Shown here one piece after another: positions 3,617 through 41,240 of a stretch of DNA of 59,693 nucleotides (positions are counted from its first letter, which is position 1; each line of letters opens with the position of its first letter). This DNA comes from Cyanobacteria bacterium REEB459 (GTDB lineage Bacteria; Cyanobacteriota; Cyanobacteriia; Phormidesmidales; Phormidesmidaceae), in NCBI GenBank assembly GCA_018970085.1, contig JAGWXD010000017.1, positions 1-59,693 of the forward strand, in the 5' to 3' direction. The notes beneath the pieces are model-generated. The model did not search any database, was not told the origin of the DNA, and saw only the letters and a program-made list of their open reading frames with translations. Position numbers and translations under genes: made by a program.

Positions 3617-5242
3617 CTAGAGATCCTGGGGCCGATCCTCTACCGACAGCATTAAAGCCCGAGCGGTTTCCAGGCGATCGGCCGCGCTGGGGTCCTTATC
3701 CTGCCGCCAGCGCAGAATGCGGGGAAAGCGGACAGAAATACCCGACTTATGGCGTGGCGAGGCAGCGATGCCCTCAAAGCCGATTTCAAACACCTGCAGC
3801 GGTTCCACCGATCGCACCGGCCCAAAGCGCTCCAGGGTATGGCGGCGGATCCAGCTATCTAGGGCCTTAATTTCCTGATTGTCTAAACCACTGTAGGCCT
3901 TGGCAAAGGGTACCAGTTCGGTCCCCTGCCAGAGGGCAAAGGTATAGTCGGTAAACAGGTTAGCCCGCTTGCCCCGCCCCGCTTGGGCGTAGATGAGAAC
4001 GCCATCCAGGCTCATCGGGTCCACCTTGTATTTCCACCAGTAGCCCCGCTTCCGTCCCACCAGGTAGGGGCTGTCCACGGCCTTAATCACCACCCCCTCA
4101 GCGCCCCGATGTCGGGCTTGATCCCGGTGGGCCGTGAGTTCCACCAGGGACTCAAAGCCAAAGGGATGGCAATAATGCAGGTGGGGGTGGGGGTAACGCT
4201 GCAGTAGCTGGGCCAGGCGCTGCTGGCGATCGCCCAGGGGCTGGGGGCGGAGGTCCTGGCCCTCCTGCTCCAGCAGATCGTAGGCTATGAAGTGAACCGG
4301 GTGATCGGCCAGCAGGCGCTTGCTCACTTGCTTGCGGCCCAGACGCTTCTGCAGGTGGCTAAAGGGCAGGGGACGGTCCTGCTGCCAGCAGAGCAATTCG
4401 CCGTCCATCACCAGACCGTTGGGCCAGCCCTCCAGGGCCGCTGCAATTTCAGGAAACTGGGGAGTTACCAGCTCTTCCCCCCGGGACCAGATAAACACCT
4501 GATCGGCGCGGCGTAAAATCTGGGCTCGGATGCCATCCCACTTCCACTCTGCCCGCCACTGGGAAAAACACTCCGGGGTAAAGCGATCGGGGTCTAAGGG
4601 ACTGGCCAGAAAAAAAGGGTAGGGCTGGCTGGCATGGGCTAGGCCGGTTTCTGGGTTGGTGAGATGGGCGTAAAAGGCCAGGTTGGGGGTAAAGTCCCCG
4701 ATTAGGCGATGGGCCAGGAGGGCTCCATCCAGGCCGCTCGCGGCAGCAAACCCTTGGATCACCAGCTGTTCGGAAACCCCACAGCGAAAGGCTCCGGTGA
4801 GAATTTTATTTAACACAAACACCTGGTCGGGGGGCAGGGCTGACCACCAGTCCAGAATTAAAGCCTGCCGTTCGGCCTCATCAGAGGTTGCCTTAGCCTG
4901 GGGCAGGATAGTTTCCATCCACTGGTGCAGGGCCAGGGGAGGTGGGTGGGTGGGGGTCAGGGCTAGGTCCGCCAGTAAGAGGGTAATCACCTCTGCCGAG
5001 TCCCCCACCTGGGCGTAGCACTCGTCAAATAGCCATTCCGCCATGCCACTCACCCGCAAAAATACCTGCCGAAGTTGATGGGCGGTAACCAGACGGCGAC
5101 GGGTTTTGCCCATCAACAGGTAGAGGGCCCAGACCTGATCGGCGGGGGGCACGGTCTCAAAGTAGACCTGCAGCGATCGCACCTTTGCCTTGGTCGAAGT
5201 GGTGCTGTCCAGCTCCTGAAATAACCGGGTAAAGCGCTCCAT
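3617..5242 (-). CDS. ATP-dependent DNA ligase (bacterial LigB/LigC-like)
   Basis: Seals nicks using ATP. Residues 1-190 form a helical DNA-binding domain. The adenylation domain follows with motif I EWKWDGIR (Lys234 is the adenylated lysine), motif III LVMDGEL (about 277-283), IIIa HFIAYDLLE, motif IV AEGVVIK (about 381-387) and motif V WWKYKV (about 402-407), then an OB domain. All catalytic residues are intact and the 541-residue length fits the three-domain bacterial form often found beside an Lhr helicase and a metallo-beta-lactamase nuclease. Neither partner is nearby here; the upstream neighbour is map, 19 bp away, so the two are likely one transcript. It is presumably a repair enzyme beside the replicative NAD-dependent LigA, which lies outside the window. 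Confidence 0.9.
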   Translation of the reverse strand: MERFTRLFQELDSTTSTKAKVRSLQVYFETVPPADQVWALYLLMGKTRRRLVTAHQLRQVFLRVSGMAEWLFDECYAQVGDSAEVITLLLADLALTPTHPPPLALHQWMETILPQAKATSDEAERQALILDWWSALPPDQVFVLNKILTGAFRCGVSEQLVIQGFAAASGLDGALLAHRLIGDFTPNLAFYAHLTNPETGLAHASQPYPFFLASPLDPDRFTPECFSQWRAEWKWDGIRAQILRRADQVFIWSRGEELVTPQFPEIAAALEGWPNGLVMDGELLCWQQDRPLPFSHLQKRLGRKQVSKRLLADHPVHFIAYDLLEQEGQDLRPQPLGDRQQRLAQLLQRYPHPHLHYCHPFGFESLVELTAHRDQARHRGAEGVVIKAVDSPYLVGRKRGYWWKYKVDPMSLDGVLIYAQAGRGKRANLFTDYTFALWQGTELVPFAKAYSGLDNQEIKALDSWIRRHTLERFGPVRSVEPLQVFEIGFEGIAASPRHKSGISVRFPRILRWRQDKDPSAADRLETARALMLSVEDRPQDL

Positions 5243-11196: not shown

Positions 11197-11997
11197 ATGA
11201 ATCGGCTCAGTAGGTTATCAGGCTTAGCTCTCTGCTGTCTGCTAGGCCTGACCGCAGGGGCCTGTGGTGGCCACCAGAAAAACGAGAGTCCAGTGGCTCT
11301 GCCAACGGCGCCGGGGGCAGTTCCCGCCCCTGGCCAGCCGTCTCCCACCCAGTCCACCCCCGCCCCTGGCCAAGCCGCGCCCAGCCAGCCGTCTCCCGCC
11401 CCGCCCAGCTCCGCCCCCGGCCCGGCTGAACCCGGCACCCCCATCAGTCCGGCCCAGCCGGCCCAATTAATTGCTGCCCAGCCAGAGGCTCGGATTAACT
11501 TGCGCTCTGGCCCCAGCACCACCGCTTCTACCCGGGGCTATGGCCTGGTGGGTGACCCCGTCCAACTGCTCAGGTCGGCCCAGGCTGAGGACGGCCTCTG
11601 GTACTATGTGAAATTTGAACAGTCCGGGGCAGAGGGGTGGATACGATCGGACTTGATTACGGTGGCGGGTCGCCCCCAGCCTCTTCCTAAGGAGGTCGCC
11701 ACCGGGCCCCAGTGCAAAGGCATGATGGAAGCCCTGGCCTTTACCGTCTATTACAATCAGGCCGGGTTTACTCTGGTGCGATTTCTCAACCTGGAGACTA
11801 AAAATAGCTTCGATAGCACCCTCACCCGGCAGGGTAACGATAGCCAGGGCAAACCCCTCTACCAGGGTAGCGCCACCCCCCCTAAGGCTGGTCCCTACAC
11901 CGTACAGATCACCGATCTATCGGGAGGTAAGCCCGGTAGTGGGTCCCAGTTGACCATTAATTACAATGGCATGGCCGGTATCGGCCTGTGTCCCTAG
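11197..11997 (+). CDS. Lipoprotein with proline-rich linker and SH3-like domain
   Basis: The frame opens at 11161, but the ATG at 11197 follows an AAGGGG ribosome-binding sequence and starts directly with a signal peptide (MNRLSRLSGLALCC) ending in a lipobox-like AGAC, giving 266 residues. After the lipid-attached Cys comes a low-complexity Pro/Ala/Ser/Gln linker (about residues 30-90), then a bacterial SH3 segment (INLRSGPSTTASTRGYGLVGD to GWIRSDLI, about 97-150), then a roughly 95-residue C-terminal domain with paired Cys that I do not recognise. SH3b domains usually bind peptidoglycan or peptides, so a periplasmic, cell-wall-associated role is likely. The following glycosyltransferase frame overlaps its 3' end. 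Confidence 0.75.
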   Translation: MNRLSRLSGLALCCLLGLTAGACGGHQKNESPVALPTAPGAVPAPGQPSPTQSTPAPGQAAPSQPSPAPPSSAPGPAEPGTPISPAQPAQLIAAQPEARINLRSGPSTTASTRGYGLVGDPVQLLRSAQAEDGLWYYVKFEQSGAEGWIRSDLITVAGRPQPLPKEVATGPQCKGMMEALAFTVYYNQAGFTLVRFLNLETKNSFDSTLTRQGNDSQGKPLYQGSATPPKAGPYTVQITDLSGGKPGSGSQLTINYNGMAGIGLCP

Positions 11998-13177
11998 TCC
12001 GGTGTCCTATCCCTACCCTCCGGTGGCGGTGCCCACCCCCCCCCTAGGGTCAGCCAAGGTGGCGATCGTCCATGAATGGTTGCAGACCCGGGCTGGCTCT
12101 GAAAAGGTGGTGGAGCAAATGCTGGGCCTATTTAGCCAGGCAGACCTGTTTGCCCTGGTTAACTTTTGCGATTCCCAGGGGGGGCCGATCCTACCTGCCC
12201 ATACCCGCATACAGACCTCCTTTCTACAGCATCTGCCCCTGGCCCAGAAGTACTTTCGTCACTATCTGGCCCTGATGCCCCTGGCGATCGAGCAGTTTAA
12301 CCTGGACCCCTATGACCTGGTGATCTCCAGCAATCATGCTGTGGCCAAGGGAGTGATTACCCGAGCCAATCAGCTCCATATCAGTTACGTCCACACCCCG
12401 ATTCGCTATGCCTGGGACCTACAACATCAATACCTGAGCCAATCCGGTTTAAAGGGGATAGGGGGTGGCCTTACCCGCCTGATTCTCCATTATCTACGTC
12501 TGTGGGACCTGGCCGCTGCCAGTCGGGTTGATTGCTTTTTGGCTAACTCTCGCTACGTCGCCCGACGCATCTGGAAAACCTATCGTCGCCCCGCTACGGT
12601 CCTTTATCCGCCGGTGGCCGTGGACCGGTTTGGCTGGCAGCGCGATCGCGAAGAATTTTACCTCACGGTTTCTCGCTGCGTGCCCTATAAGCGGGTCGAT
12701 CTATCGGTAGCCGCCTTTAACCAACTGGGTTGGCCCCTGGTGGTGATGGGGGATGGCCCGGGTCTAGAACAACTGCGGCGATCGGCTAAACCCAATATCA
12801 GCTTTATTCAAAAACCAGATGACAACCTGGTGGCGGATTATATGGAACGCTGCCGGGGCTTCATTTTTCCGGCTGAAGAAGACTTTGGTATTACCGTAGT
12901 GGAGGCCCAAGCCGCCGGGGCTCCAGTGATTGCCTATGGTCAAGGGGGTAGCGCAGAAACTGTCCAGGCTGGCCAAACGGGCATTTTATTTGATCGCCAA
13001 ACCGTTGAAGACCTGGTGGAGGCAGTCAGGTATTTTGAACAAACCCGCAGTCACTTCCATGCTGAGAGCATTCGCAATCACGCCGAAACCTTTTCAGAAC
13101 AACGGTTTCGCCAGCACTTCTGGAATTTTGTCAACCTTCAATGGATGAATTTTTGTCAAGGTAATGGCTTAGAGTAG
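11966..13177 (+). CDS. Family 4 glycosyltransferase (exopolysaccharide/cell-surface glycan)
   Basis: A GT-B fold transferase. The N-terminal half has VAIVHEWLQTRAGSEKV and the YVHTPIRYAWDLQHQYL stretch typical of polysaccharide GT4 enzymes. The C-terminal donor-binding half has KRVDLSVAAF, VVMGDGP and the retaining EX7E motif in EDFGITVVEAQAAGAPVIAYGQGGS. The first ATG overlaps the preceding lipoprotein gene by 32 bp; a GTG at 12002, just past that gene's stop, gives 391 residues and may be the true start. A polyprenyl-phosphate sugar transferase follows 30 bp later, so these two probably act in the same glycan pathway. The sugar specificity cannot be read from the sequence. Confidence 0.88.
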   Translation: MAWPVSACVPSPVSYPYPPVAVPTPPLGSAKVAIVHEWLQTRAGSEKVVEQMLGLFSQADLFALVNFCDSQGGPILPAHTRIQTSFLQHLPLAQKYFRHYLALMPLAIEQFNLDPYDLVISSNHAVAKGVITRANQLHISYVHTPIRYAWDLQHQYLSQSGLKGIGGGLTRLILHYLRLWDLAAASRVDCFLANSRYVARRIWKTYRRPATVLYPPVAVDRFGWQRDREEFYLTVSRCVPYKRVDLSVAAFNQLGWPLVVMGDGPGLEQLRRSAKPNISFIQKPDDNLVADYMERCRGFIFPAEEDFGITVVEAQAAGAPVIAYGQGGSAETVQAGQTGILFDRQTVEDLVEAVRYFEQTRSHFHAESIRNHAETFSEQRFRQHFWNFVNLQWMNFCQGNGLE

Positions 13178-13207: not shown

Positions 13208-14653
13208 ATGTTTCTTCCACAACCAGCGGTTAATCCAGTCAAGGCCTCTTTAAAAATGTCCAGCCGATCCATCCCTATGGTGGGGCTACTGGCTGCCGCC
13301 GACCTACTGGCTCTCCTGCTAGCCGGGGCCCTCAGTGTTTACGGACGGCTAGTGCTAGATGGCCAATACCCCCCGGTTCTCTACGGCCAGCTGTGGCCAA
13401 TTCTGGGGGTGTTTATTCTGGCCTATGGGCTAAGCGGCCTCTATCCCGGGGTGTGTGTCAGCCCGGCGGACGAGCTGCGCCGGGTGGTGCTATCCACCTC
13501 CTTTATTTATTTGGTATTGGGGTCTGGTATTTTTTTGGTCCGCCAGGGAGAAACCTACTCTCGCAGCGTCTTTCTACTGGCCTGGGGACTCTCCCTGCTG
13601 TTGGTGCTGCTCGGGCGATGGCTGGTCCGCCACCTGTTTGCTCGATGCGACTGGTGGGGCTATCCGGTACTGATTTTGGGAGCTGGACGGACCGGAGAAC
13701 TGGTCATTCAAACCTTAAAAAAGCAACCCTGGTTTGGTCTCAAACCGGTGGCAGTGCTGGATGACAACCCGGCGATGAGGGGAGACCTGGCGGGCGTTCC
13801 CGTAGTTGGTGCCTTGGCCCTGGCCCCCCTGCTAGCCCGTCAGCGAGATATTCACTATGGGATTGTGGCGATTCCAGGAGTGAACCGCCAGCGACTGCTG
13901 ACCATTCTGGAGGACTACGGCCATAGTTTTGCCCATTTATTAATGATTCCTGACCTATTTGGCCTGGCCAGTCTCTGGGTAGGTGCCAGGGATCTAGGCG
14001 GCATACTTGGTTTAGAGATTAGTCAACGGCTACTTTTGCCTGGATCCCGCATGACTAAGGCCCTGCTAGACCTGAGCTTAACCCTGCTGCTGGTAAGTCT
14101 GCTGTTGCCGCTGCTGCTGCTAGTGGTGATTTTAATCAAACTGGATTCCCCTGGGCCTTTGTTTTACGGTCATCAACGGGTGGGCCGCCACGGCGCTACC
14201 TTTGTCGCCTGGAAGTTTCGAACCATGGTAGAAAATGCCGATCAGGTGTTGGAAAATTATTTGCAGGCCAATCCCGCTTTGCAGCAGCAATGGCAGGCAG
14301 ATCAAAAGCTGCGTTACGACCCCAGAGTGACCACCGTTGGCCGCCTTTTACGACGCACCAGCCTGGACGAATTACCCCAACTCTGGAATGTGCTGCGGGG
14401 TGAAATGAGTCTGGTGGGACCCCGCCCCATTGTGGGCGATGAAATTGAACGCTATGCCGACACCTACAAGCTTTATACTCGAGTCTTGCCAGGACTAACC
14501 GGCCTATGGCAAGTCTCGGGGCGCAATAATGTTTCCTACCCAGCCCGGGTTAATCTAGATGCCTACTACGTGAGAAATTGGTCGGTCTGGCTGGATATTT
14601 ATATTCTAGCTAGAACCGTTTGGGTGGTGATTACTGGGGAAGGGGCCTATTAG
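13208..14653 (+). CDS. Polyprenyl-phosphate glycosyl-1-phosphate transferase (WbaP/RfbP type)
   Basis: Starts an exopolysaccharide or O-antigen repeat unit by moving sugar-1-phosphate from a nucleotide sugar to undecaprenyl phosphate in the inner membrane. The 481 residues show about four N-terminal membrane helices (residues 20-150), a Rossmann-like CoA-binding-type domain ([15 protein letters not shown], about 155-170), a further helix (about 295-320) and the catalytic bacterial sugar transferase domain with [53 protein letters not shown] and [11 protein letters not shown], each a family hallmark. It lies 30 bp downstream of the GT4 gene. The hairpin-forming ATCTCC/GGAGAT at 14666-14688 follows it but lacks a U tract. 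Confidence 0.94.
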
Positions 14654-30920: not shown

Positions 30921-32390
30921 ATGGTCAATTCTGTCCCTAAGACCCCGGGTAGTTCTAATCCCGGTCAATCACCAGACCGCCGTTCTGAGGTCTTTACCTC
31001 TAGTTTGGGAGGGCTACACCTGCCCAATACCCCCCTCTTTGGCACCGATGGCATTCGCGGCAAAGCAGGAGAATTACTCACTGCCCCTCTAGCCATGGAA
31101 GTGGGCTACTGGGCAGGACAGGTATTTCGAGCCGAGGGGTTAGACCAGGGACCGGTGGTCGTGGGGCAGGATTCTCGCAACTCCGGACACATGCTGGCTA
31201 CAGCCCTCTCCGCCGGGCTGACCTCAGCAGGGCTGGATGTGTGGCAGGTGGGGTTATGTCCCACCCCCGCCGTCGCCTATCTAGCAGAGTCCTGTGATGC
31301 CCTGGGAGGCATTATGATTTCTGCCAGCCATAACCCCCCCCAAGACAACGGTATTAAATTCTTTGGTAGCGACGGGACTAAACTCACCACTGACCTGCAG
31401 GCTAAAATCGAAGCAGCGCTGCGGGGACACCCCCCCCACCTGGATATATGCCCTAATGCCCACTGGGGTCAATGCTACTACCGCCCCGAATTGATCAATC
31501 GCTACGCCAGCTTTTTGCACGAACCCCTGATGCCAGGGCTGAATTTAGCGGGCATGACAGTGATCCTGGATCTAGCCTGGGGATCCGCCACCTGCCTGGG
31601 GGAAGAAGTATTCCGGGCAACGGGGGCGCGGGTGATTACCCTCCATGGCTTACCAAATGGTGACCGGATTAATGTTGATTGTGGATCAACCCATCTGGAC
31701 CCCTTGAAGGCTGCCATTAAAAGTACCGGAGCTGATCTGGGCTTTGCCTTTGATGGTGATGCAGACCGGGTCATGGCCGTTGACGGCCAGGGACGCGTGG
31801 TAGATGGAGACTATATTCTTTACCTCTGGGGTCAGTACCTGCAGCAGCAAGACCGCCTGCCTGAGCAAACCCTGGTCTCTACTGTGATGGCGAACCTGGG
31901 CTTTGAGCGAGCCTGGGAAAAATTGGGAGGTACCCTGGTGCGCACTAAGGTGGGCGATCAGTATGTGCACGCTGAAATGGTAAAACGGGGAGCCAAACTG
32001 GGGGGTGAGCAGTCTGGCCATATTCTCTGTCACCACTATAGTTTGACGGGCGATGGTCTGCTGACCGCGCTGCACCTGGCGGCCCTGGTGCAACGGCTCG
32101 GCGGGTCTCTGGCTACCCTGCTTGATCAGAGCTTCAAGACCTATCCTCAACAGCTACAAAATGTCAGGGTTACAGACCGGGAGCGTCGTCTCAACTGGCA
32201 GGACTGCCAGCCTTTGCAACGAGCTATTGAAGCGGCCGAACAGGCCATGGGAACTGAAGGCCGAGTACTGGTTAGAGCCTCAGGCACCGAACCTGTGATT
32301 CGAGTCATGGTTGAAGCAATGCATCAGGATACGGTAGACCATTGGATGCAGCACATTGTTGGCTTAGCCTCTAAACACTTGGCAACCTAA
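30921..32390 (+). CDS. glmM: Phosphoglucosamine mutase
   Basis: Interconverts glucosamine-6-phosphate and glucosamine-1-phosphate on the way to UDP-GlcNAc, peptidoglycan and lipopolysaccharide. All four mutase signatures are visible: LFGTDGIRG, the phosphoserine loop [16 protein letters not shown], the Mg-binding FDGDADRV, and the sugar- and phosphate-binding GGEQSGH and RASGTEP. The 489 residues include a roughly 30-residue N-terminal extension before the first conserved motif, seen in some cyanobacteria. It is a monocistronic-looking gene. Confidence 0.95.
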
Positions 32391-32784
32391 ATGACTCGGT
32401 GGATTTAACGAACCTGGGTCCGTCTAGCTGAACAGTGGCCAAGAGCCCCGATGGAGGCAAGCGGCGTGACCCTTGAGGAGTTTCCCTGGCTACCGAACCA
32501 GGTAGGGCGACAAGGGATGGCCTGGGAAATTTCAGTCTATTTTAACAATTTATCCTCCACCGTAGCCTGCAGCCAGGGACTATTTCTACCCCATGACGAT
32601 AGGGTCCCAAGGGCTTAATACCCCCTATAGTTTTGGGATAAATCAGGGAACCCTTTATGGGTAAATAGATTTAGGCTACCCCCTGATGTAGCTGGGGCAG
32701 CCCAAAGCCAGGCAGAGCGGTCCTGGCTAGTATTATCTGACTATCGGTACTGGGTTGGGGATATATAAAGCTAGGGAGATAGAT
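32391..32784. other. Structured intergenic region ahead of the LysM/M23 gene
   Basis: A 394-bp gap. The first 140 bp are GC-rich and can fold: for example CTACC (32493-32497) with GGTAG (32504-32508), enclosed by TCCCT and AGGGA. LysM/M23 genes are classic targets of the c-di-AMP (ydaO) riboswitch, so I looked for its GGGGTGAATC and GTCAGCTAACCTCG core and did not find it. No ORF was convincing. Confidence 0.35.
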
Positions 32785-33690
32785 ATGATCGCTATAGATG
32801 GCAAACAACCAAAAGGCTCCTGGATGGGTATAGGATTGGCTCTGGTGATGATCACTCTGCTGCCTACATCCGCCCTGGCGACAACTCAAATGGCAGCGGT
32901 CAGTCAGGCAACCTGTCAGCCTCCAGCTCTGTCACGGCTGACTCGTTACCGGGTAGGAGCCAAAGATACCCTAGCCGCGATCGCCGAGCGCCATGGATTG
33001 ATAGCAGCCACGTTGATTGGGTTTAATCCAGCCTTGCAAGCAGGCCCCATCAAGGTTGGGCAGGAGTTAGTGATTCCTCCCTACAATGGCATTCAAGTCA
33101 GGGTTAATCCAGGGCAAACCTGGCAGCAACTAGCCAAACTCTATCGTACCCAGGCAGATGTGCTGTTTGAGGTGAATGGGTGTGTCACCACCATGCCCAC
33201 CACTATTTTTGTTCCCGGAGTCAACTGGTATACCCAGGCCAACTCTGGAACTACTGCTACCCCCAGTTCCAACCTACTGGGAGGGTATCCACTCAGCGAG
33301 CGGGCAGCGGTGATTATGGCCTATGGCTGGCAGCCCGATGCTGCTCAGAACCGAATGATTTTCCATACCGGGGTAGGGCTGATCAGCCAGGGAGGAGCCC
33401 CAGTTCTGGCCGTAGGAGCAGGTACGGTGGCCTTTGCCGGCATCGATCCGGTCTACGGCAAGCTGGTGGTAGTCAACCACGCCCAGGGACTTCAAACTCG
33501 CTATGCCAACCTGGAGACTATCACCGTCAAGGCAGGACAGCGGCTGCGTCAGGGCGATCGGCTGGGGCGGGTAGCCGCCCCCCAGGTCAACCAACCCCCC
33601 TTTCTCTACTTTGAAGTCAGGCTAAATTCCCCACAGGGTTGGGTAGCCCAGAATCCCCAGGATTTCGTTTCAGGCATCAGTGACCCCTAG
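32785..33690 (+). CDS. LysM and degenerate M23 (LytM-like) exported protein
   Basis: A 301-residue exported protein. The signal peptide lies at about residues 15-35, followed by two LysM-like modules (YRVGAKDTLAAIAERHGL...LVIPP and VRVNPGQTWQQLAKLYRT...IFVPG) and an M23 peptidase fold. The M23 metal ligands are mostly gone: HxGxD reads HTGVG, the YAHL His is Asn (RYANL), and HLHFE reads FLYFE. It therefore probably binds peptidoglycan without cutting it, as EnvC and NlpD do when they activate amidases. The start at 32785 is chosen over 32755 because it precedes a proper signal sequence and follows GGGAGATAG. It is a single gene between glmM and an AT-rich gap. Confidence 0.82.
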   Translation: MIAIDGKQPKGSWMGIGLALVMITLLPTSALATTQMAAVSQATCQPPALSRLTRYRVGAKDTLAAIAERHGLIAATLIGFNPALQAGPIKVGQELVIPPYNGIQVRVNPGQTWQQLAKLYRTQADVLFEVNGCVTTMPTTIFVPGVNWYTQANSGTTATPSSNLLGGYPLSERAAVIMAYGWQPDAAQNRMIFHTGVGLISQGGAPVLAVGAGTVAFAGIDPVYGKLVVVNHAQGLQTRYANLETITVKAGQRLRQGDRLGRVAAPQVNQPPFLYFEVRLNSPQGWVAQNPQDFVSGISDP

Positions 33691-34349
33691 GAGCACCTGG
33701 CCATCAACAGAGGATTGAGACCGGGACATGGAGGAAGCAGGGTTTTGTAAAGCCAGGATGAAGCCTTGATAAAGCTATGATCTTTCTCACGCCAAATCCT
33801 CTAGAAAAATTCTGTTTTGACCTAGAGTGTTATTATGAAGAAAAGATTCTAAACATACAATGATATTGTATGCTTTAGTAAATCATAATTGTTCATCACT
33901 GAGACGTATATTAATAAAATTAAATTGATTTGATTTAAAATTATCTAGCTAGATATCGCTAAGTGCGACAACTTATTCCAGAATTCAAAAGAATAGTTAA
34001 ACTAGTTTAGCTGCGGTTTATCTCCGCCCAAACAATATGTTTAATTCATTTTATTCAGATAGAGTTTTTATACTGTTAACTTGATTTCAGAAAAGTTATT
34101 TGTTTCTGCTTTTAGCTTTAGCGAAGCATTTTACCGATCAACAATAGATTTTTATATGGACGAGAGATAGCCGTAATACTGATCGAAAGAGCCAAGGTTT
34201 TGCTTGATATTTGCCCTCTAAAATGATAATGTTTAGTTTATTTACCGGCATTAATTACCTATTTCAGATGCCTTGAAATTATTAATTTTAAATCCTCGCT
34301 TATGAGGCGTTTAATCTGTCAAGTTAAAGATTTTTATCAAGGAGAACTC
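33691..34349. other. AT-rich, palindrome-bearing leader of the deoxysugar unit
   Basis: About 660 bp without a gene; the last 550 bp are strikingly AT-rich compared with the rest of the window. Three palindromes stand out: CATACAAT-GAT-ATTGTATG (33854-33872), TATCTAGCTAGATA (33952-33965) and TAAACTAGTTTA (33998-34009). The first has the size and spacing of a dimeric repressor site. The change in composition marks the left edge of a possible acquired segment. No transposase, tRNA or att-like repeat was seen. Confidence 0.5.
33854..33872. promoter_or_regulatory. Operator-like inverted repeat
   Basis: A perfect 8-bp inverted repeat with a 3-bp spacer (CATACAAT-GAT-ATTGTATG) in AT-rich DNA about 480 bp ahead of the dehydratase start. 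No match to NtcA, Fur or LexA consensus was recognised and no regulator gene is adjacent. It might instead form an RNA hairpin, though it lacks a T tract. Confidence 0.35.
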
Positions 34350-35885
34350 ATGGGAGCTATCGGAAATGGTGGTAAAGTCTATTCTATGCATTCTGGCAAT
34401 AATATTGATACAGCGATTTCTGATGGACAAAATCAGGTCGAATCTGTGTCTATGACTTCAGCCAGGCATGGAGATAAAATGAGCTATGACAGACTGTTCC
34501 TAGAGTCAGCCCATTGTACTGATAGTCATATTTTTCCCCTCGAAAAATTTGATCAATGGTTTAAGGAGGCGATTCAGCGCCATCGCTTTCGTATTGATCA
34601 AATCTCCTTCTCGGAATTGATAAAATGGAGTTTCACCGCCGCCGGTAGTCTTAGCCACGATAGTGGTCGTTTTTTTTCTATCCAAGGTATTTCTGTTAAT
34701 ACCAGTTACGGTTCGGTACCCCATTGGTCCCAGCCCATCATCAATCAGCCTGAGGTTGGTTTTTTGGGATTTATTGTCAAGCGAATTCGCGGTATTCCCC
34801 ACTTTCTGATGCAAGCCAAGATGGAGCCTGGCAATATCAATATGATTCAGCTGGCTCCTACTCTTCAGGCCACCCGCAGCAACTACATGCGGGTCCACGA
34901 GGGCCGGTCTCCTACTTTTTTAGATTATTTTCGCGATCCCTCCCGTCGCCGCCGGGTTCTGGTGGATGTTCTCCAGTCTGAGCAAGGCGGACGCTTCCTT
35001 CGTAAGCGGAATCGCAATATGGTAGTTGAAATTTCCTCCGAGGATCTTTTGGAGGTGCCTCAAGATTATATCTGGCTCTCTCTAGGACAAATCCAGCGCC
35101 TGCTGCGTCGAGATAACACCATTAACATGGATGCACGAACGGTTTTGGGATGTATTTCCTTTCATCGTTTTGGATTTGATGCGGGGGATCATCTGAATGA
35201 ATCAGCCTCCAACATTGCCCATCCCTTGCATACCATGGATGAGATTTTGACCTGGTTCACCGAACGTAAATGTCAGTATGACCTAGAGGTCCAGCCCATC
35301 TCGCTGGACCAGGTTGCAGAATGGCAACGGGATGACCATCGAATTTATCACCCCAGCGGAGATTTTTTTGAAGTCATCGCGATGCGAGTGGAAGCAGATA
35401 ATCGGGAAGTGACGGCCTGGACCCAACCCATTATTAAGCCCTGTAAGCATGGCATTATTGCCATGGTAGCCCGGGAGTTCAACGGCGTTCTGCACTTCTT
35501 AGTTCAGGCTAAAGTTGAGGCTGGCAACTTCGATGTGGTAGAAATGGCTCCTACGGTTCAGTGCATGACCGGCGACTATCGTCGCCATCGTGATAATTGG
35601 CCTCCTTTCCTGGACTATGTCCTGAATGCTCCCACCGACTCAATCTATCTAGATACCCTTCAGTCCGAAGAGGGCGGACGGTTTTATCGGGAAGAAAACC
35701 GTAATATGATTGTCTGGGCTGATGATTCCTTTTCTATGGATATTCCCGACAATTACAAATGGATTTCCTACACCCAACTCAAGAACCTGATTCGCTTTAA
35801 CAATATTGTTAACATTCAGGCTCGTTGCCTACTTTGCTGTATTCCCCCTGGGCTGGACGGTACTGGGCGTTTGCAAAAGGTTTAA
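34350..35885 (+). CDS. NDP-hexose 2,3-dehydratase (EvaA/TylX3 family)
   Basis: A 511-residue protein of the hexose dehydratase family, which removes the C2 hydroxyl of dTDP-4-keto-6-deoxyglucose at the start of 2-deoxysugar synthesis. It has the family's internal duplication: the first copy starts at about residue 64, the second at about 296, and matching motifs recur (QAKMEPGN/QAKVEAGN, LAPT/MAPT, LQSEQGGRF/LQSEEGGRF). The ATG at 34350 is chosen over 34302 because GGAG lies 6 bases before it. The first 60 residues (Ser/Gly/Asn-rich) are not typical of the family. It is 3 bp upstream of an oxidoreductase gene and has lower GC than its neighbours. Partners for dTDP-sugar supply (rfbA, rfbB) are not in the window. 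Confidence 0.88.
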   Translation: MGAIGNGGKVYSMHSGNNIDTAISDGQNQVESVSMTSARHGDKMSYDRLFLESAHCTDSHIFPLEKFDQWFKEAIQRHRFRIDQISFSELIKWSFTAAGSLSHDSGRFFSIQGISVNTSYGSVPHWSQPIINQPEVGFLGFIVKRIRGIPHFLMQAKMEPGNINMIQLAPTLQATRSNYMRVHEGRSPTFLDYFRDPSRRRRVLVDVLQSEQGGRFLRKRNRNMVVEISSEDLLEVPQDYIWLSLGQIQRLLRRDNTINMDARTVLGCISFHRFGFDAGDHLNESASNIAHPLHTMDEILTWFTERKCQYDLEVQPISLDQVAEWQRDDHRIYHPSGDFFEVIAMRVEADNREVTAWTQPIIKPCKHGIIAMVAREFNGVLHFLVQAKVEAGNFDVVEMAPTVQCMTGDYRRHRDNWPPFLDYVLNAPTDSIYLDTLQSEEGGRFYREENRNMIVWADDSFSMDIPDNYKWISYTQLKNLIRFNNIVNIQARCLLCCIPPGLDGTGRLQKV

Positions 35886-35888
35886 ACC

Positions 35889-36872
35889 ATGACCAGTCAG
35901 GTAAATGCGCCCCCGCTCAGGGTGGGAGTGATGGGATGTTCCTCCTTTGCTCAACGCACCATGATCCCTGCGATCGCAGCGGCTAACGGGGTTGAGTTAC
36001 GGGCGATCGCCAGTCGAGACCTCGAGCGCTCCCAAGCCCTTGCCGATGCCTATGGTGTCCTTGCCCTGGGCAGTTACGAAGGGCTGCTGGAGTTGGCCGA
36101 CATTGATCTGGTCTACATGCCTCTGCCTACGGCTCTGCACGAGCCCTGGGTAATGGCCGCCCTGGAGGCAGGCAAACATTTGCTAGTGGAAAAATCCTTT
36201 GCAGCGGATCTGGCCTCTGCTCAGCGCATGCTCGATCTAGCCCAACAGAAGCGACGCCTGGTGGTTGAGAACTTTCTATTTCGGCGTCATTCCCAACTCA
36301 GCTGGGTTAAGCAGCAATTGGCTACAGGGGCTATTGGTTCTTTGAAGTTCTTCCGTGGTTGTTTTTCAATTCCGGCTCTGGCTCAAGACAATTTCAGGTA
36401 TCGAGCTGATTTGGGAGGGGGTGCGCTCTTGGACGCAGGCGTCTACCTGATCAAATCAGCCACTGAATTTCTAGGTCCCGACCTTAAACTTCTCTACGCC
36501 ACCCTGGAATTTGATCAGCAACGACAGATCGACCTACGGGGCTCTGCAGCCTGGATAAACTCAGAAGGTACCCTTGCCCAAACTCTCTGGGCCTTTGATA
36601 CCCATTATCAATGTACCTGGGATTGCCATGGTACCGACGGCCGCATAGTGTGCGAACGGGCCCTCACTCCGCCGCCCAACTTCCAGCCGCCGGTCAGACT
36701 AGAGCGGGGATCAACCAGAGAAGATTTGCAGTTACCTCCAGATAATCACTACGTTGCCCAGTGGAATTATCTGGCTCAGGCGGTAAACTCTGACCAGAGC
36801 ATTGATGCAGCCCTGGCAGAAACCCTATTGCAAGCCAAACAATTGCAGCAAGTTATCGACTATGCTAAATAA
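35889..36872 (+). CDS. Gfo/Idh/MocA oxidoreductase, probable NDP-hexose 3-ketoreductase
   Basis: A 327-residue NAD(P)-dependent oxidoreductase. The Rossmann fold opens with GVMGCSSFAQRTMIPAI (about residues 13-29), Lys102 in VEKSF is the expected catalytic lysine, and GGGALLDAGVYLI closes the C-terminal substrate domain. It starts 3 bp after the 2,3-dehydratase. In antibiotic deoxysugar pathways the dehydratase product is reduced at C3 by a Gfo/Idh/MocA enzyme of this type (TylC1, EryBII), so I infer the same pairing, giving an NDP-4-keto-2,6-dideoxyhexose. The family alone would also allow other sugar dehydrogenase roles; the neighbour is what supports the specific call. Confidence 0.82.
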   Translation: MTSQVNAPPLRVGVMGCSSFAQRTMIPAIAAANGVELRAIASRDLERSQALADAYGVLALGSYEGLLELADIDLVYMPLPTALHEPWVMAALEAGKHLLVEKSFAADLASAQRMLDLAQQKRRLVVENFLFRRHSQLSWVKQQLATGAIGSLKFFRGCFSIPALAQDNFRYRADLGGGALLDAGVYLIKSATEFLGPDLKLLYATLEFDQQRQIDLRGSAAWINSEGTLAQTLWAFDTHYQCTWDCHGTDGRIVCERALTPPPNFQPPVRLERGSTREDLQLPPDNHYVAQWNYLAQAVNSDQSIDAALAETLLQAKQLQQVIDYAK

Positions 36873-36899
36873 TTTCCTATGCTCAAATCTTAGGTAGTC

Positions 36900-38261
36900 A
36901 TGCACCACACCCTTGACCAATTACATCGGGGGGAGCTAGCGGGCACTAGGCGTCTCAATCTTGCCGCTGGTCTGATGGATTTTCCGGTCGAGATCTTTGA
37001 TCTGAGTGATTCCCTTGAGGTTTTAGATTTATCCCATAACCAGCTCGATTCCCTACCCGATAGTCTACCCAGGCTAAAGAAACTTCAGAGACTGTTTCTG
37101 AGCAATAATAACTTTGAAACGGTTCCTGAAGTCCTGAGCCAGTGTAGCCGGTTGTCTATGATTGCCTTCAAAGGTAATCGAATTCATACCCTACCAGACC
37201 ATGCCCTGCCACCCCGAACCCGGTGGCTGATCTTAACCGACAATTGCCTGGAGTCCCTACCCGCTTCCCTGGGATCTTTGCCCTGTTTGCAAAAGGTTTC
37301 CCTGGCTGGTAATCGGTTGCGCCACCTACCGGGGCAGCTGATCCATTGCCAGCATCTAGAATTTATCCGAGTGGCGGCTAACCAACTGGAGGAATTTCCT
37401 ACCTGGCTGCTATCCTTACCTCGACTAACCTGGTTTGGCTATGCCGGCAATCCTTTTTGTGCCGATTGGAGTCAACCGGGTCGGGGCCAACCCCAGCTTG
37501 CTACCCCCCAACTCACTACCCCCCAACTCACTACCATTGACTGGCATCAGTTGGTGTTGGGGGAGGTCCTGGGACAGGGGGCCTCTGGGATCATTTCGCG
37601 GGGCGTCTGGAACAGCGGAGATGGCGACCTGGAGGTTGCGGTCAAGGTGTTCAAGGGAGAGGTTACCAGCGATGGCTATCCCATTGATGAGATGCAAGCC
37701 TGTCTGGCGGTTGGTAGCCATAGTAATCTGATGAGTCCTCTGGGGCAAATCAGTAACCACCCTGAGCAAAAAACAGGGCTGGTGTTTCCCCTAGCGCCTG
37801 CTGACTACCGGAGTTTAGGCAACCCGCCCAGTTTAGACAGTTGTACTCGAGATACCTACTCTCCTGAGACCCATTTCTCCGTGCAGGCGGTCCTGAATAT
37901 TGCCCTTGACGTGGCGGCAGCGGTTGCCCACCTGCACCAACGGGGCATCCTCCATGGCGATCTCTACGCCCACAATATTCTCAGTAACCATCTAGATAGG
38001 GCTATTTTGGGAGACTTTGGAGCGGCCTCCTTCTATCCTGAAAGCCTGGCTACCCGGCTAGAACCTACGGAAATCCGAGCCTTTGGTTGCTTGTTAGAAG
38101 ACCTGTTAAGCCATTGCCCGACGGCCGACAGCCCTTCTGCCTCTATGGTCGAGGATCTACACCAACTCTGTCAAGACTGTATGGATACCCGACCAGACCA
38201 ACGGCCTGGTTTTAGCTTGATTCTGGACCAGATGGAGGGCTTGGTTTCAACCATCGGTTAG
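36900..38261 (+). CDS. Leucine-rich-repeat protein with a C-terminal protein kinase domain
   Basis: A 453-residue cytoplasmic fusion. Residues 15-190 hold about seven leucine-rich repeats (for example LEVLDLSHNQLDSLP, LQKVSLAGNRLRHLP). A short TPQL-type triplet repeat (about 198-212) links to a kinase-like domain with the glycine loop GQGASG (225-230), Lys249 in VAVKVF, Glu264, the catalytic loop HGDLYAHN (Asp354, Asn359) and DFG (Asp372). All catalytic residues are present, with Gly in place of the HRD arginine. The same LRR-kinase arrangement exists in pseudomonads and some cyanobacteria, without known substrates. It lies 27 bp behind the oxidoreductase and is probably the third gene of that operon. 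Confidence 0.88.
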   Translation: MHHTLDQLHRGELAGTRRLNLAAGLMDFPVEIFDLSDSLEVLDLSHNQLDSLPDSLPRLKKLQRLFLSNNNFETVPEVLSQCSRLSMIAFKGNRIHTLPDHALPPRTRWLILTDNCLESLPASLGSLPCLQKVSLAGNRLRHLPGQLIHCQHLEFIRVAANQLEEFPTWLLSLPRLTWFGYAGNPFCADWSQPGRGQPQLATPQLTTPQLTTIDWHQLVLGEVLGQGASGIISRGVWNSGDGDLEVAVKVFKGEVTSDGYPIDEMQACLAVGSHSNLMSPLGQISNHPEQKTGLVFPLAPADYRSLGNPPSLDSCTRDTYSPETHFSVQAVLNIALDVAAAVAHLHQRGILHGDLYAHNILSNHLDRAILGDFGAASFYPESLATRLEPTEIRAFGCLLEDLLSHCPTADSPSASMVEDLHQLCQDCMDTRPDQRPGFSLILDQMEGLVSTIG

Positions 38262-38328
38262 ACCCCACTGAACCAGTCAGGGGTTGAGACTCTGGGCAAG
38301 CGGGCCGACCTTTTCTGGGTGCTAGACC

Positions 38329-38649
38329 CTAATTCAGGTGGGCACGCAAACGGGTGAGCAGTTGATCTAGGGGAAGCACCCCTTCTATGCGATCGACAAC
38401 CCCCCTGGCCTTAAAGAAAACCAGGGTGGGGAGGGCAGTAATGCTGTATTGGGAGGCGATTTGGGGATACCTATCGGTATCGATTTTAACCACCTTGATC
38501 TGCCCTTTGAGCTGATCGTTTACCTGGGTTAGGATACTTGCCATCATCTGGCAGGGGCCACACCAGGTGGCATAAAAATCTACTAGTACTGGTACCTGAG
38601 AACTGGCCAGCAGGTCGTCAAAGCTCCGAAATTCTTGCTTAGTGGCCAT
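38329..38649 (-). CDS. trxA: Thioredoxin
   Basis: A 106-residue thiol-disulfide oxidoreductase with the WCGPC active site (Cys30, Cys33), the conserved cis-proline in ALPTLVFF and no signal peptide, so it acts in the cytoplasm. It accepts electrons from thioredoxin reductase or, in phototrophs, ferredoxin-thioredoxin reductase, and reduces enzymes such as Calvin-cycle targets. Cyanobacteria have several types (m, x, y); I cannot assign this one. It is 11 bp downstream of gpsA and probably co-transcribed with it. Confidence 0.92.
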   Translation of the reverse strand: MATKQEFRSFDDLLASSQVPVLVDFYATWCGPCQMMASILTQVNDQLKGQIKVVKIDTDRYPQIASQYSITALPTLVFFKARGVVDRIEGVLPLDQLLTRLRAHLN

Positions 38650-38660
38650 GGGTTGTGGTC

Positions 38661-39662
38661 CTATCCTACCCTTAATAGTTGTTGGTAATCTTCTGCTTTC
38701 AACTGCCGTTCCATCAGGGCCGTAACGGCTGCACTGGCGGAGATTTGACCCCGCAGCAGCCGATCAACCTGGTCGCAGATGGGCAAGGAAAGGGTATCAC
38801 GACGGGCGATCGCCATCACTACCTGGGCTGTATTCACCCCCTCCGCCGTGCTGCCTAACTCCCTGAGAATCTGTTCCAGAGCCTTACCCTGGGCCAGGCC
38901 GTAGCCCACCCGGTAATTACGGCTCAGGGCACTGGTACAGGTAGCCAGCATATCCCCTAACCCTGAGAGCCCCAGAAAGGTTTCAGCTTGGCCGCCCAAG
39001 TGAGTACCAATCCGAATCAGTTCGGGTAGGGCTCGGGTAATCAGAGCAGAACGGGCATTGGCACCTAGTTTAAGGCCATCACAAACTCCCACCGCAATAG
39101 CCATAACATTTTTTAAGGTACCGCCTAACTCTGCCCCCAGGGGATCACCACTACGATAGGTGCGAAAGGTTTCCGTTGCCAAGACATGCTGCAGGGCTTC
39201 AGCAGCAGTTTCCTGACGACTGGCAATGACTGTTGCCGCTGGCAGCCCCTGCTGAATTTCTCCAGCCAGATTGGGACCCGAAAGAACCACCAGGGCGTGG
39301 CCTGGAAAGGTTTGCTGAAAAATTTGAGAGGGAGTCAGGGTGGTGGCGGGGTCTAATCCCTTAGTGGCGGTCACCAGAATGGTAGTGGGGGCAATGGCCA
39401 GGGCCTCTAACTCTTTAGCCAGATCAGGCACCCCCGCCATAGAAACCGCTGAGATCACCAGATCGGCTCCCGCCACAGCCTGTTCGAGGGTCAGGCCCTG
39501 GCGCCGCGACCATAGTCGAACCTGATGCTGGTTAGCCAGGGCCAGGCCAGCCAGGGTCTGCCCCCAGACTCCAGACCCCAAAATGGTCAGGGTCACCTGA
39601 TTGTGTTTATAGGTTTCAAAGACCTGGTTCAAGGCTACTGGAACCGGAGAGGGAACACCCAT
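38661..39662 (-). CDS. gpsA: Glycerol-3-phosphate dehydrogenase [NAD(P)+]
   Basis: Reduces dihydroxyacetone phosphate to sn-glycerol-3-phosphate for membrane lipid synthesis. The N-terminal Rossmann motif is TILGSGVWGQTLAGLA, with VTATKGLD, VVLSGPNLAGEI and the catalytic-lysine region ELGGTLKNVMAIAVG following. The ATG at 39662 (333 residues) is chosen over the GTG at 39686 because AGGGG lies 7 bases before it. A roughly 25-residue N-terminal extension precedes the Rossmann fold. It lies between rluD-like and trxA genes on the same strand, with gaps of 36 and 11 bp. Confidence 0.94.
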   Translation of the reverse strand: MGVPSPVPVALNQVFETYKHNQVTLTILGSGVWGQTLAGLALANQHQVRLWSRRQGLTLEQAVAGADLVISAVSMAGVPDLAKELEALAIAPTTILVTATKGLDPATTLTPSQIFQQTFPGHALVVLSGPNLAGEIQQGLPAATVIASRQETAAEALQHVLATETFRTYRSGDPLGAELGGTLKNVMAIAVGVCDGLKLGANARSALITRALPELIRIGTHLGGQAETFLGLSGLGDMLATCTSALSRNYRVGYGLAQGKALEQILRELGSTAEGVNTAQVVMAIARRDTLSLPICDQVDRLLRGQISASAAVTALMERQLKAEDYQQLLRVG

Positions 39663-39698
39663 GGGAAAACCCCTGATAGATAACACTCTAGAGAAGAT

Positions 39699-40661
39699 TT
39701 AACAGCCTGACTCTGGCGGTACGGTGGCCCCAGACCCGGTCCCTAGCCGACAACGCAGGACCCTGACCAGGGTAGTCAAGTGGGGAGGCCAGGGAGCCAC
39801 CGCTACAATCGGCTCTCCAGTTAGGGGATGGGTCAGGCTCAGCCGCTCAGCGTGGAGAGCCTGACCGGGCAGATTAACGCCAATAGGGCGGCCTGAACCG
39901 TAGGTGCGATCGCCAACCAAAGGATAGCCGATGTGGCTACTATGTACCCGAATTTGGTGGGTACGGCCCGTCTCCAGACGATAGCGCAGCAGAGAGTAGG
40001 GGCCCAGTCGTTCCTCTAAGCACCAGTGGGTCAGGGCTGGTCGGCCGCCCTGGGTCAGAGGCAGCACAGTATTTTTTTTGCGCTCAAGGGGATGGCGACC
40101 CAGGGGCAGGTCAATCGTGCCAGACTCTCCCGGAGGCACCCCGTAGACCACCCCCAGGTATTCCCGGCCAGCCGTTCTAGCCTTAATCTGGGCTTGCAGA
40201 TGGCCATGGGCAAAGTCGGTTTTAGCTACCACAATAGCGCCGGTGGTGTCCTTATCGAGCCGATGCACAATGCCAGGACGCTGAACCCCCCCAATACCTG
40301 GCAAACAGTTACCACAATGGGCCAGCAATGCATGTACCAGGGTGCCCTCCAGATTACCCGGCGCCGGATGGACCACCAATCCGGCTGGCTTATTGATAAT
40401 AATCAGGTGATCGTCTTCGTATAAGATGTCTAGAACCATCGCCTGGGGCACCAATTCTAGAGGCTGAGCTGCCGGTATGGTGAGGCTAAGGCGATCGCCC
40501 GCTTGCACCAGGGTCTGCTTGTGAGTACAACGCTGACCATTGAGGGTGAGATAGCCCCCCTCAATTAGCTTTTGAATGCGATTGCGAGAGATACCCTGAA
40601 CATTAGCAGTCAACCAGCGATCCAGCCGTTCTAGATGGCTGGATCTGACGGTTAAGTCCAT
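39699..40661 (-). CDS. RluD/RluA-type pseudouridine synthase
   Basis: Converts specific uridines to pseudouridine in ribosomal RNA. An N-terminal S4 RNA-binding domain (about residues 5-65: LDRWLTANVQGISRNRIQKLIEGGYLTLNG in outline) precedes the catalytic domain with GIVHRLDKDTTG, which holds the nucleophilic Asp, and the later TGRTHQIRVH motif. The frame opens with TTG at 40697, but the ATG at 40661 gives the usual S4 start and 320 residues. It heads a probable rluD-gpsA-trxA transcript. The exact target uridines cannot be read from the sequence. Confidence 0.93.
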   Translation of the reverse strand: MDLTVRSSHLERLDRWLTANVQGISRNRIQKLIEGGYLTLNGQRCTHKQTLVQAGDRLSLTIPAAQPLELVPQAMVLDILYEDDHLIIINKPAGLVVHPAPGNLEGTLVHALLAHCGNCLPGIGGVQRPGIVHRLDKDTTGAIVVAKTDFAHGHLQAQIKARTAGREYLGVVYGVPPGESGTIDLPLGRHPLERKKNTVLPLTQGGRPALTHWCLEERLGPYSLLRYRLETGRTHQIRVHSSHIGYPLVGDRTYGSGRPIGVNLPGQALHAERLSLTHPLTGEPIVAVAPWPPHLTTLVRVLRCRLGTGSGATVPPESGC

Positions 40662-41169: not shown

Positions 41170-41240
41170 GCGGGTGTAGTTTAGTGGTAAAACCTTAGCC
41201 TTCCAAGCTAATGATGGGGGTTCGATTCCCCCCACCCGCT
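41170..41240 (+). tRNA. tRNA-Gly(TCC)
   Basis: A 71-base tRNA folds completely. The acceptor stem is GCGGGTG/CACCCGC with discriminator T; the D stem GTTT/AAAC; the anticodon stem TTAGC/GCTAA around the loop CTTCCAA, giving anticodon TCC (reads GGA and GGG); and the T arm GGGGG-TTCGATT-CCCCC. The CCA end is not encoded. Eighteen bases upstream a 7-bp inverted repeat, TAAACTA/TAGTTTA (41131-41151), lies in the promoter region. It is a lone tRNA, and no integrase or truncated copy marks it as an insertion site. Confidence 0.96.

Follow-up and report, generated by a model that had tools for sequence, protein, structure and literature searches.

A probably acquired dideoxysugar gene pair beside a protein kinase gene in a cyanobacterium

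Introduction

What is a gene pair for dideoxysugar synthesis doing in a cyanobacterium, and does the protein kinase gene that follows it belong to the same unit? The question is raised by three genes at positions 34350–38261 of a contig of Cyanobacteria bacterium REEB459, the whole analysed stretch of which (59.7 kb) is referred to below as the window. They encode a putative nucleoside diphosphate (NDP)-hexose 2,3-dehydratase, a Gfo/Idh/MocA oxidoreductase and a leucine-rich-repeat (LRR) protein kinase, and a preliminary description had taken them for one unit, in which the kinase might control the production of a deoxysugar for a surface glycan. The analysis reported here leads to another answer: the first two genes (34350–36872) are probably a horizontally gained dideoxysugar cassette, which stands beside an unrelated kinase and could use the substrate made by the rml pathway of the genome itself.

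Identity of the Sugar Enzymes

The first gene (34350–35885, plus strand) encodes a protein of 511 amino acids with two repeats of the Hexose_dehydrat family (PF03559, found by Pfam in two stretches, E 4e-158, 523 bits). Its start is an ATG after AAGGAG, while the longest open reading frame (ORF) of this frame begins at 34302. EvaA (PDB 4j7g) of Amycolatopsis orientalis, an enzyme of chloroeremomycin synthesis that has the same two repeats, aligns to residues 34–499 (E 4.8e-111). Glu159 and Glu211 of the window protein, as counted on the pairwise alignment, occupy the positions of EvaA Glu139 and Glu190, which a passage of a review describes as likely catalytic (PMC8987622); both are identical in six of the six dehydratases aligned. 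Judged from these similarities, 34350–35885 encodes an EvaA-type NDP-hexose 2,3-dehydratase with its catalytic residues in place. EvaA, however, belongs to an antibiotic cluster, and the window enzyme has no such setting.

The second gene (35889–36872, plus strand) encodes 327 amino acids with a GFO_IDH_MocA domain (PF01408) and its C-terminal domain (PF22725). The nearest solved relative is KijD10 (PDB 3rbv), which with 226.7 bits scores double any other solved protein (105.6 bits for the next different one). Lys102 and Tyr186, which we take to be the catalytic pair, are invariant in the alignment and kept between the two proteins. The product is accordingly predicted to be a KijD10-type sugar 3-ketoreductase, the C3 stereochemistry of which, in comparison with KijD10, is not readable from the sequence. 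The names given to both sugar enzymes in the preliminary description thus stand.

Conservation of the Pair and Probable Independence of the Kinase

In the genomes surrounding its host the dehydratase is rare. Among 38 relatives the window's own genome alone has it; the counts are 1 in 63 genomes for the order, 2 in 388 for the class and 4 in 386 for the phylum, from samples that overlap and that each include the window's genome. Elsewhere the enzyme is widespread, and the best 80 loci of 580 confirmed candidates from scanned genome contigs were inspected with flanks of varying length, up to 9 kb. By title, 61 of them belong to Bacteroidota. The reductase gene follows the dehydratase directly in 65 of these loci and after another gene in seven, and was not found in eight, four of which have less than 1 kb of downstream sequence, whereas the remaining four (L075, L083, L140 and L149) have more than 2.5 kb and still none. 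The LRR kinase was found in none of the 80, even when its LRR and catalytic halves were used as separate queries at E 1e-3. The other markers in the flanks (matches at E 1e-6, to be read as loose family names, with weak matches to short-chain dehydrogenases/reductases (SDR) among those of RmlB) were an aminotransferase in 47 loci, a 4-ketoreductase-like SDR in 24, a GT2 glycosyltransferase in 20, RmlA in 18, an RmlB-like protein in 17 and a Wzx-like flippase in 14, and such settings are of the surface-polysaccharide type. The surface glycan that had been proposed as the sink of the sugar therefore remains a plausible one, the pair being found elsewhere often among genes of this kind.

The third gene (36900–38261, plus strand; 453 amino acids; PF13855, PF07714, PF00069), probably a neighbour outside the sugar unit, has a distribution of its own. 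Of the 37 other relatives, 20 have an orthologue with 55–63% identity; 19 of these are almost complete, and one is partial, lying at the end of a contig. The orthologues share the LRR and kinase layout and the named catalytic residues with the window protein; the full catalytic set listed at the outset (Lys249, Asp354, Asn359 and Asp372 of the DFG motif) is indeed the same in all 19 sequences aligned, i.e., the window kinase and 18 relatives, and the window kinase carries HGD where HRD is usual. The relatives' kinases (L003–L022), unlike that of the window, sit in other neighbourhoods without the sugar-pair genes: no dehydratase or reductase match of any length (E 1e-10) was found in 21 kinase loci from the 20 genomes. 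In nine of the 11 loci with neighbours listed (within L037–L049) a recurring neighbourhood was observed, with, on the upstream side, a conserved protein and (where its ORF is called) a UPF0093 protein, and, on the downstream side, another conserved protein and ABC-2 permeases, the family names being taken from one locus (L039); L036, L043 and the window kinase are outside it. This neighbourhood may hint at the real role of the kinase.

The reading of the three genes as one operon in this species, with the kinase regulating the synthesis of the deoxysugar or surface glycan, draws on their common strand, on gaps of 3 and 27 bp, which were confirmed together with the ORFs and their coordinates, on a reductase–kinase gap in which no terminator-like site was detected, and on the intact catalytic residues of the kinase. 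Spacing alone, however, says little: among the 45 window genes listed, 12 of the 29 same-strand neighbour pairs (both gaps of the locus included) are 30 bp or less apart, overlaps counted, and because equally close pairs are so common there is nothing remarkable in the 27 bp that precede the kinase. Moreover, the order dehydratase–reductase–kinase occurs in no other genome examined, since the kinase is absent from all of the best 80 dehydratase loci and the dehydratase from all 37 other relatives, including the 20 that have the kinase. Hence the proposed coupling did not hold when the conserved triad was searched for: the pair is widespread without the kinase, an outcome that the preliminary description had itself named as refuting, and the kinase is common without the pair. 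We consider the one-operon reading unlikely; the kinase is most likely an unrelated resident bystander and not a partner of the sugar pair.

Origin of the Pair

A tree built from 87 dehydratases places the window protein as sister (support 100/97) to that of a member of Phycisphaeraceae (L073), with 57% identity, and separates it from the two proteins of the same phylum, L067 (genome G376) and L068 (G274); L069 and L068 form long branches of unsure place. The gene order of the Phycisphaeraceae locus, a cluster of the surface-polysaccharide type, is RmlB, RmlA, dehydratase, reductase and aminotransferase, then a flippase and GT2. Its reductase, with 46% identity to that of the window, lies directly downstream of the dehydratase as in the window, which is without the other neighbours. 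In the genomes of L067 and L068, about 2 Mb in size, the pair is found within large sugar and polysaccharide gene clusters. A second orphan cassette lies in a further cyanobacterium of that class (genome G620, C21; L177:8960-12428), where the dehydratase and reductase form an isolated unit with a DegT aminotransferase, flanked by housekeeping genes of the RimM/ManC and RNase III types. Its dehydratase, found after the tree was built and left out of the 87 sequences, is 37–38% identical to that of the window, and the third gene of the unit encodes the aminotransferase rather than a kinase.

The composition of the locus also departs from that of its surroundings. The G+C content of the dehydratase gene (47.3%) is the lowest of 39 genes measured, the window as a whole having 55.3%, and for the synonymous-codon score the reductase ranks lowest among the genes measured. 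Upstream of the pair lies an AT-rich spacer (33691–34349; no strand assigned) with 32.8% G+C, against 51.6–61.2% in three other spacers measured, and this could mark an edge of the transferred stretch. Taken together, rarity, phylogeny and composition favour horizontal transfer, and the pair was apparently acquired from another kind of bacterium.

The same tree bears on the possibility that the pair provides the decoration of a secreted natural product, in the way known from actinomycete antibiotics. On a Pseudonocardia plasmid the pair lies beside polyketide synthase (PKS) and dTDP-sugar genes (dTDP, deoxythymidine diphosphate), and on Streptomyces plasmids near glycosyltransferase and dTDP-sugar genes. 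Yet the window dehydratase falls outside the Actinomycetota clade, and no PKS marker was found in the window, to which the search for natural-product clusters was limited; markers for the PKS and dTDP-sugar genes that lie close by in antibiotic dideoxysugar clusters gave no match there. A natural-product role thus seems very unlikely. The initial comparison with antibiotic producers was right as to the enzyme pair and its likely chemistry but too narrow as a frame.

Sugar Supply and Glycan Context

No RmlA, RmlB, RmlC, RmlD, PKS or flippase marker was found in the window at E 1e-6. The same genome, however, harbors on contig C25 a complete rmlB-rmlA-rmlD-rmlC operon beside a GT2 gene; RmlB, a long-form RmlA, RmlD and RmlC each score above the NCBIfam cut-off, and dTDP-4-keto-6-deoxyglucose should therefore be present in the cell. 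We propose that RmlB of this operon supplies the compound and that the dehydratase would remove water from it to give dTDP-3,4-diketo-2,6-dideoxyglucose; the products of 2,3-dehydratases are given as dTDP-3,4-diketo-2,6-dideoxyhexoses in the part of the review concerned with them (PMC8987622). The reductase would then act at C3, its stereochemistry being left open, and dTDP-4-keto-2,6-dideoxyglucose would be formed. A putative 4-ketoreductase and a glycosyltransferase encoded elsewhere in the genome would complete the sugar and transfer it, with a surface glycan as the most likely acceptor. The kinase gene, whose LRR product is common in the genus, would simply lie downstream of the cassette, any read-through transcription being incidental. 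The 3-ketoreductase step to dTDP-4-keto-2,6-dideoxyglucose is an established part of dideoxysugar pathways. In this scheme known enzymes are found in an unusual host and in an unusually isolated setting.

The window is also without the contiguous flippase, transferase and sugar genes of a surface-polysaccharide cluster. About 20 kb upstream of the pair it contains just a group-1 glycosyltransferase gene (11966–13177) and, directly after it, a Bac_transf sugar transferase gene (13208–14653), beside which no further polysaccharide gene was recognised; the two show that glycan-assembly genes exist but provide no link to the pair. The early observation that polyketide, dTDP-sugar and glycosyltransferase genes are lacking nearby thus holds for the PKS and Rml markers throughout the window and has to be qualified for the glycosyltransferase. 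Two other parts of the genome were considered as a source of partners, a 4-ketoreductase-like gene on contig C23 and a CDP-glucose-type gene set on contig C41, neither of which could be linked to the cassette. In the literature searched, neither a cyanobacterial 2,3-dehydratase pathway nor an LRR kinase of this kind surfaced, which is not proof of their absence from print; a 3,6-dideoxyhexose, a different sugar, is mentioned in a passage on the lipopolysaccharide of Anabaena cylindrica (PMC4515613).

A bolder combination would be a standalone cassette grafted onto the housekeeping rhamnose pathway of a photosynthetic organism, and both co-transcribed with and controlled by the resident LRR kinase, so that this species alone would have gained a novel surface glycan under regulation; we regard it as very improbable.

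Arguments Against an Acquired Cassette

Several observations weigh against an acquired cassette independent of the kinase. Neither a terminator-like site in the gap between reductase and kinase nor a promoter-like site just before the kinase was found, by scans that proved no better than shuffles (4 promoter-like and 5 terminator-like sites versus shuffle means of 5.8 and 5.5); a single transcript in this species is therefore possible; taken alone, such a transcript would be no proof of regulation. Five of the kinase loci (L003, L046, L050, L019 and L021) have less than 1 kb on one side, as does L022, though whole-genome searches detected no dehydratase anywhere in the genomes behind them. The branch of the window dehydratase is long (0.68), and the G+C content of the reductase gene (54.3%) and the codon score of the dehydratase gene (0.068) are both ordinary. 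Nor was an empty site, a mobile element or a donor demonstrated for the pair: with the window genes as queries, solely gpsA matched in the gpsA regions of 10 relatives, and just the kinase in the relatives' kinase loci, plus a weak histidine-kinase match in four, while one tRNA at 41170–41240 and short imperfect repeats in 32000–40000 do not convincingly bracket the pair. Finally, no committed 4-ketoreductase was found in the genome, the best candidate being the C23 gene, with 30% identity, beside a DegT-type aminotransferase.

This last point, along with the lack of partner genes adjoining the pair, would also suit a decaying or idle remnant, whose enzymes are intact but whose sugar stays unfinished since the 4-ketoreductase and transferase were not transferred with them. 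Both frames, however, are open over their full length with the catalytic residues kept, and many unrelated SDR and transferase genes of the genome could serve instead (12 SDR matches are listed). We hold a remnant to be improbable and retain the functional cassette as the preferred reading.

Other Features of the Window

Family scans (Pfam or NCBIfam) covered 30 of the 45 listed genes. Positions 3617–5242 encode an ATP-dependent DNA ligase that has the N-terminal, the middle and the C-terminal domain. At 3.24 Mb and 99.84% completeness, the genome is smaller than all 22 genomes of the same genus listed (3.4–7.3 Mb, some of them incomplete).

Conclusions

The caution to be drawn from the kinase is that close spacing in a single genome does not amount to functional linkage. 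The dehydratase–reductase pair itself travels as a unit, which reaches far beyond antibiotic producers and is often found in the company of surface-polysaccharide genes. As for the organism, the cassette predicts a 2,6-dideoxysugar in this cyanobacterium, which the relatives examined should be without.

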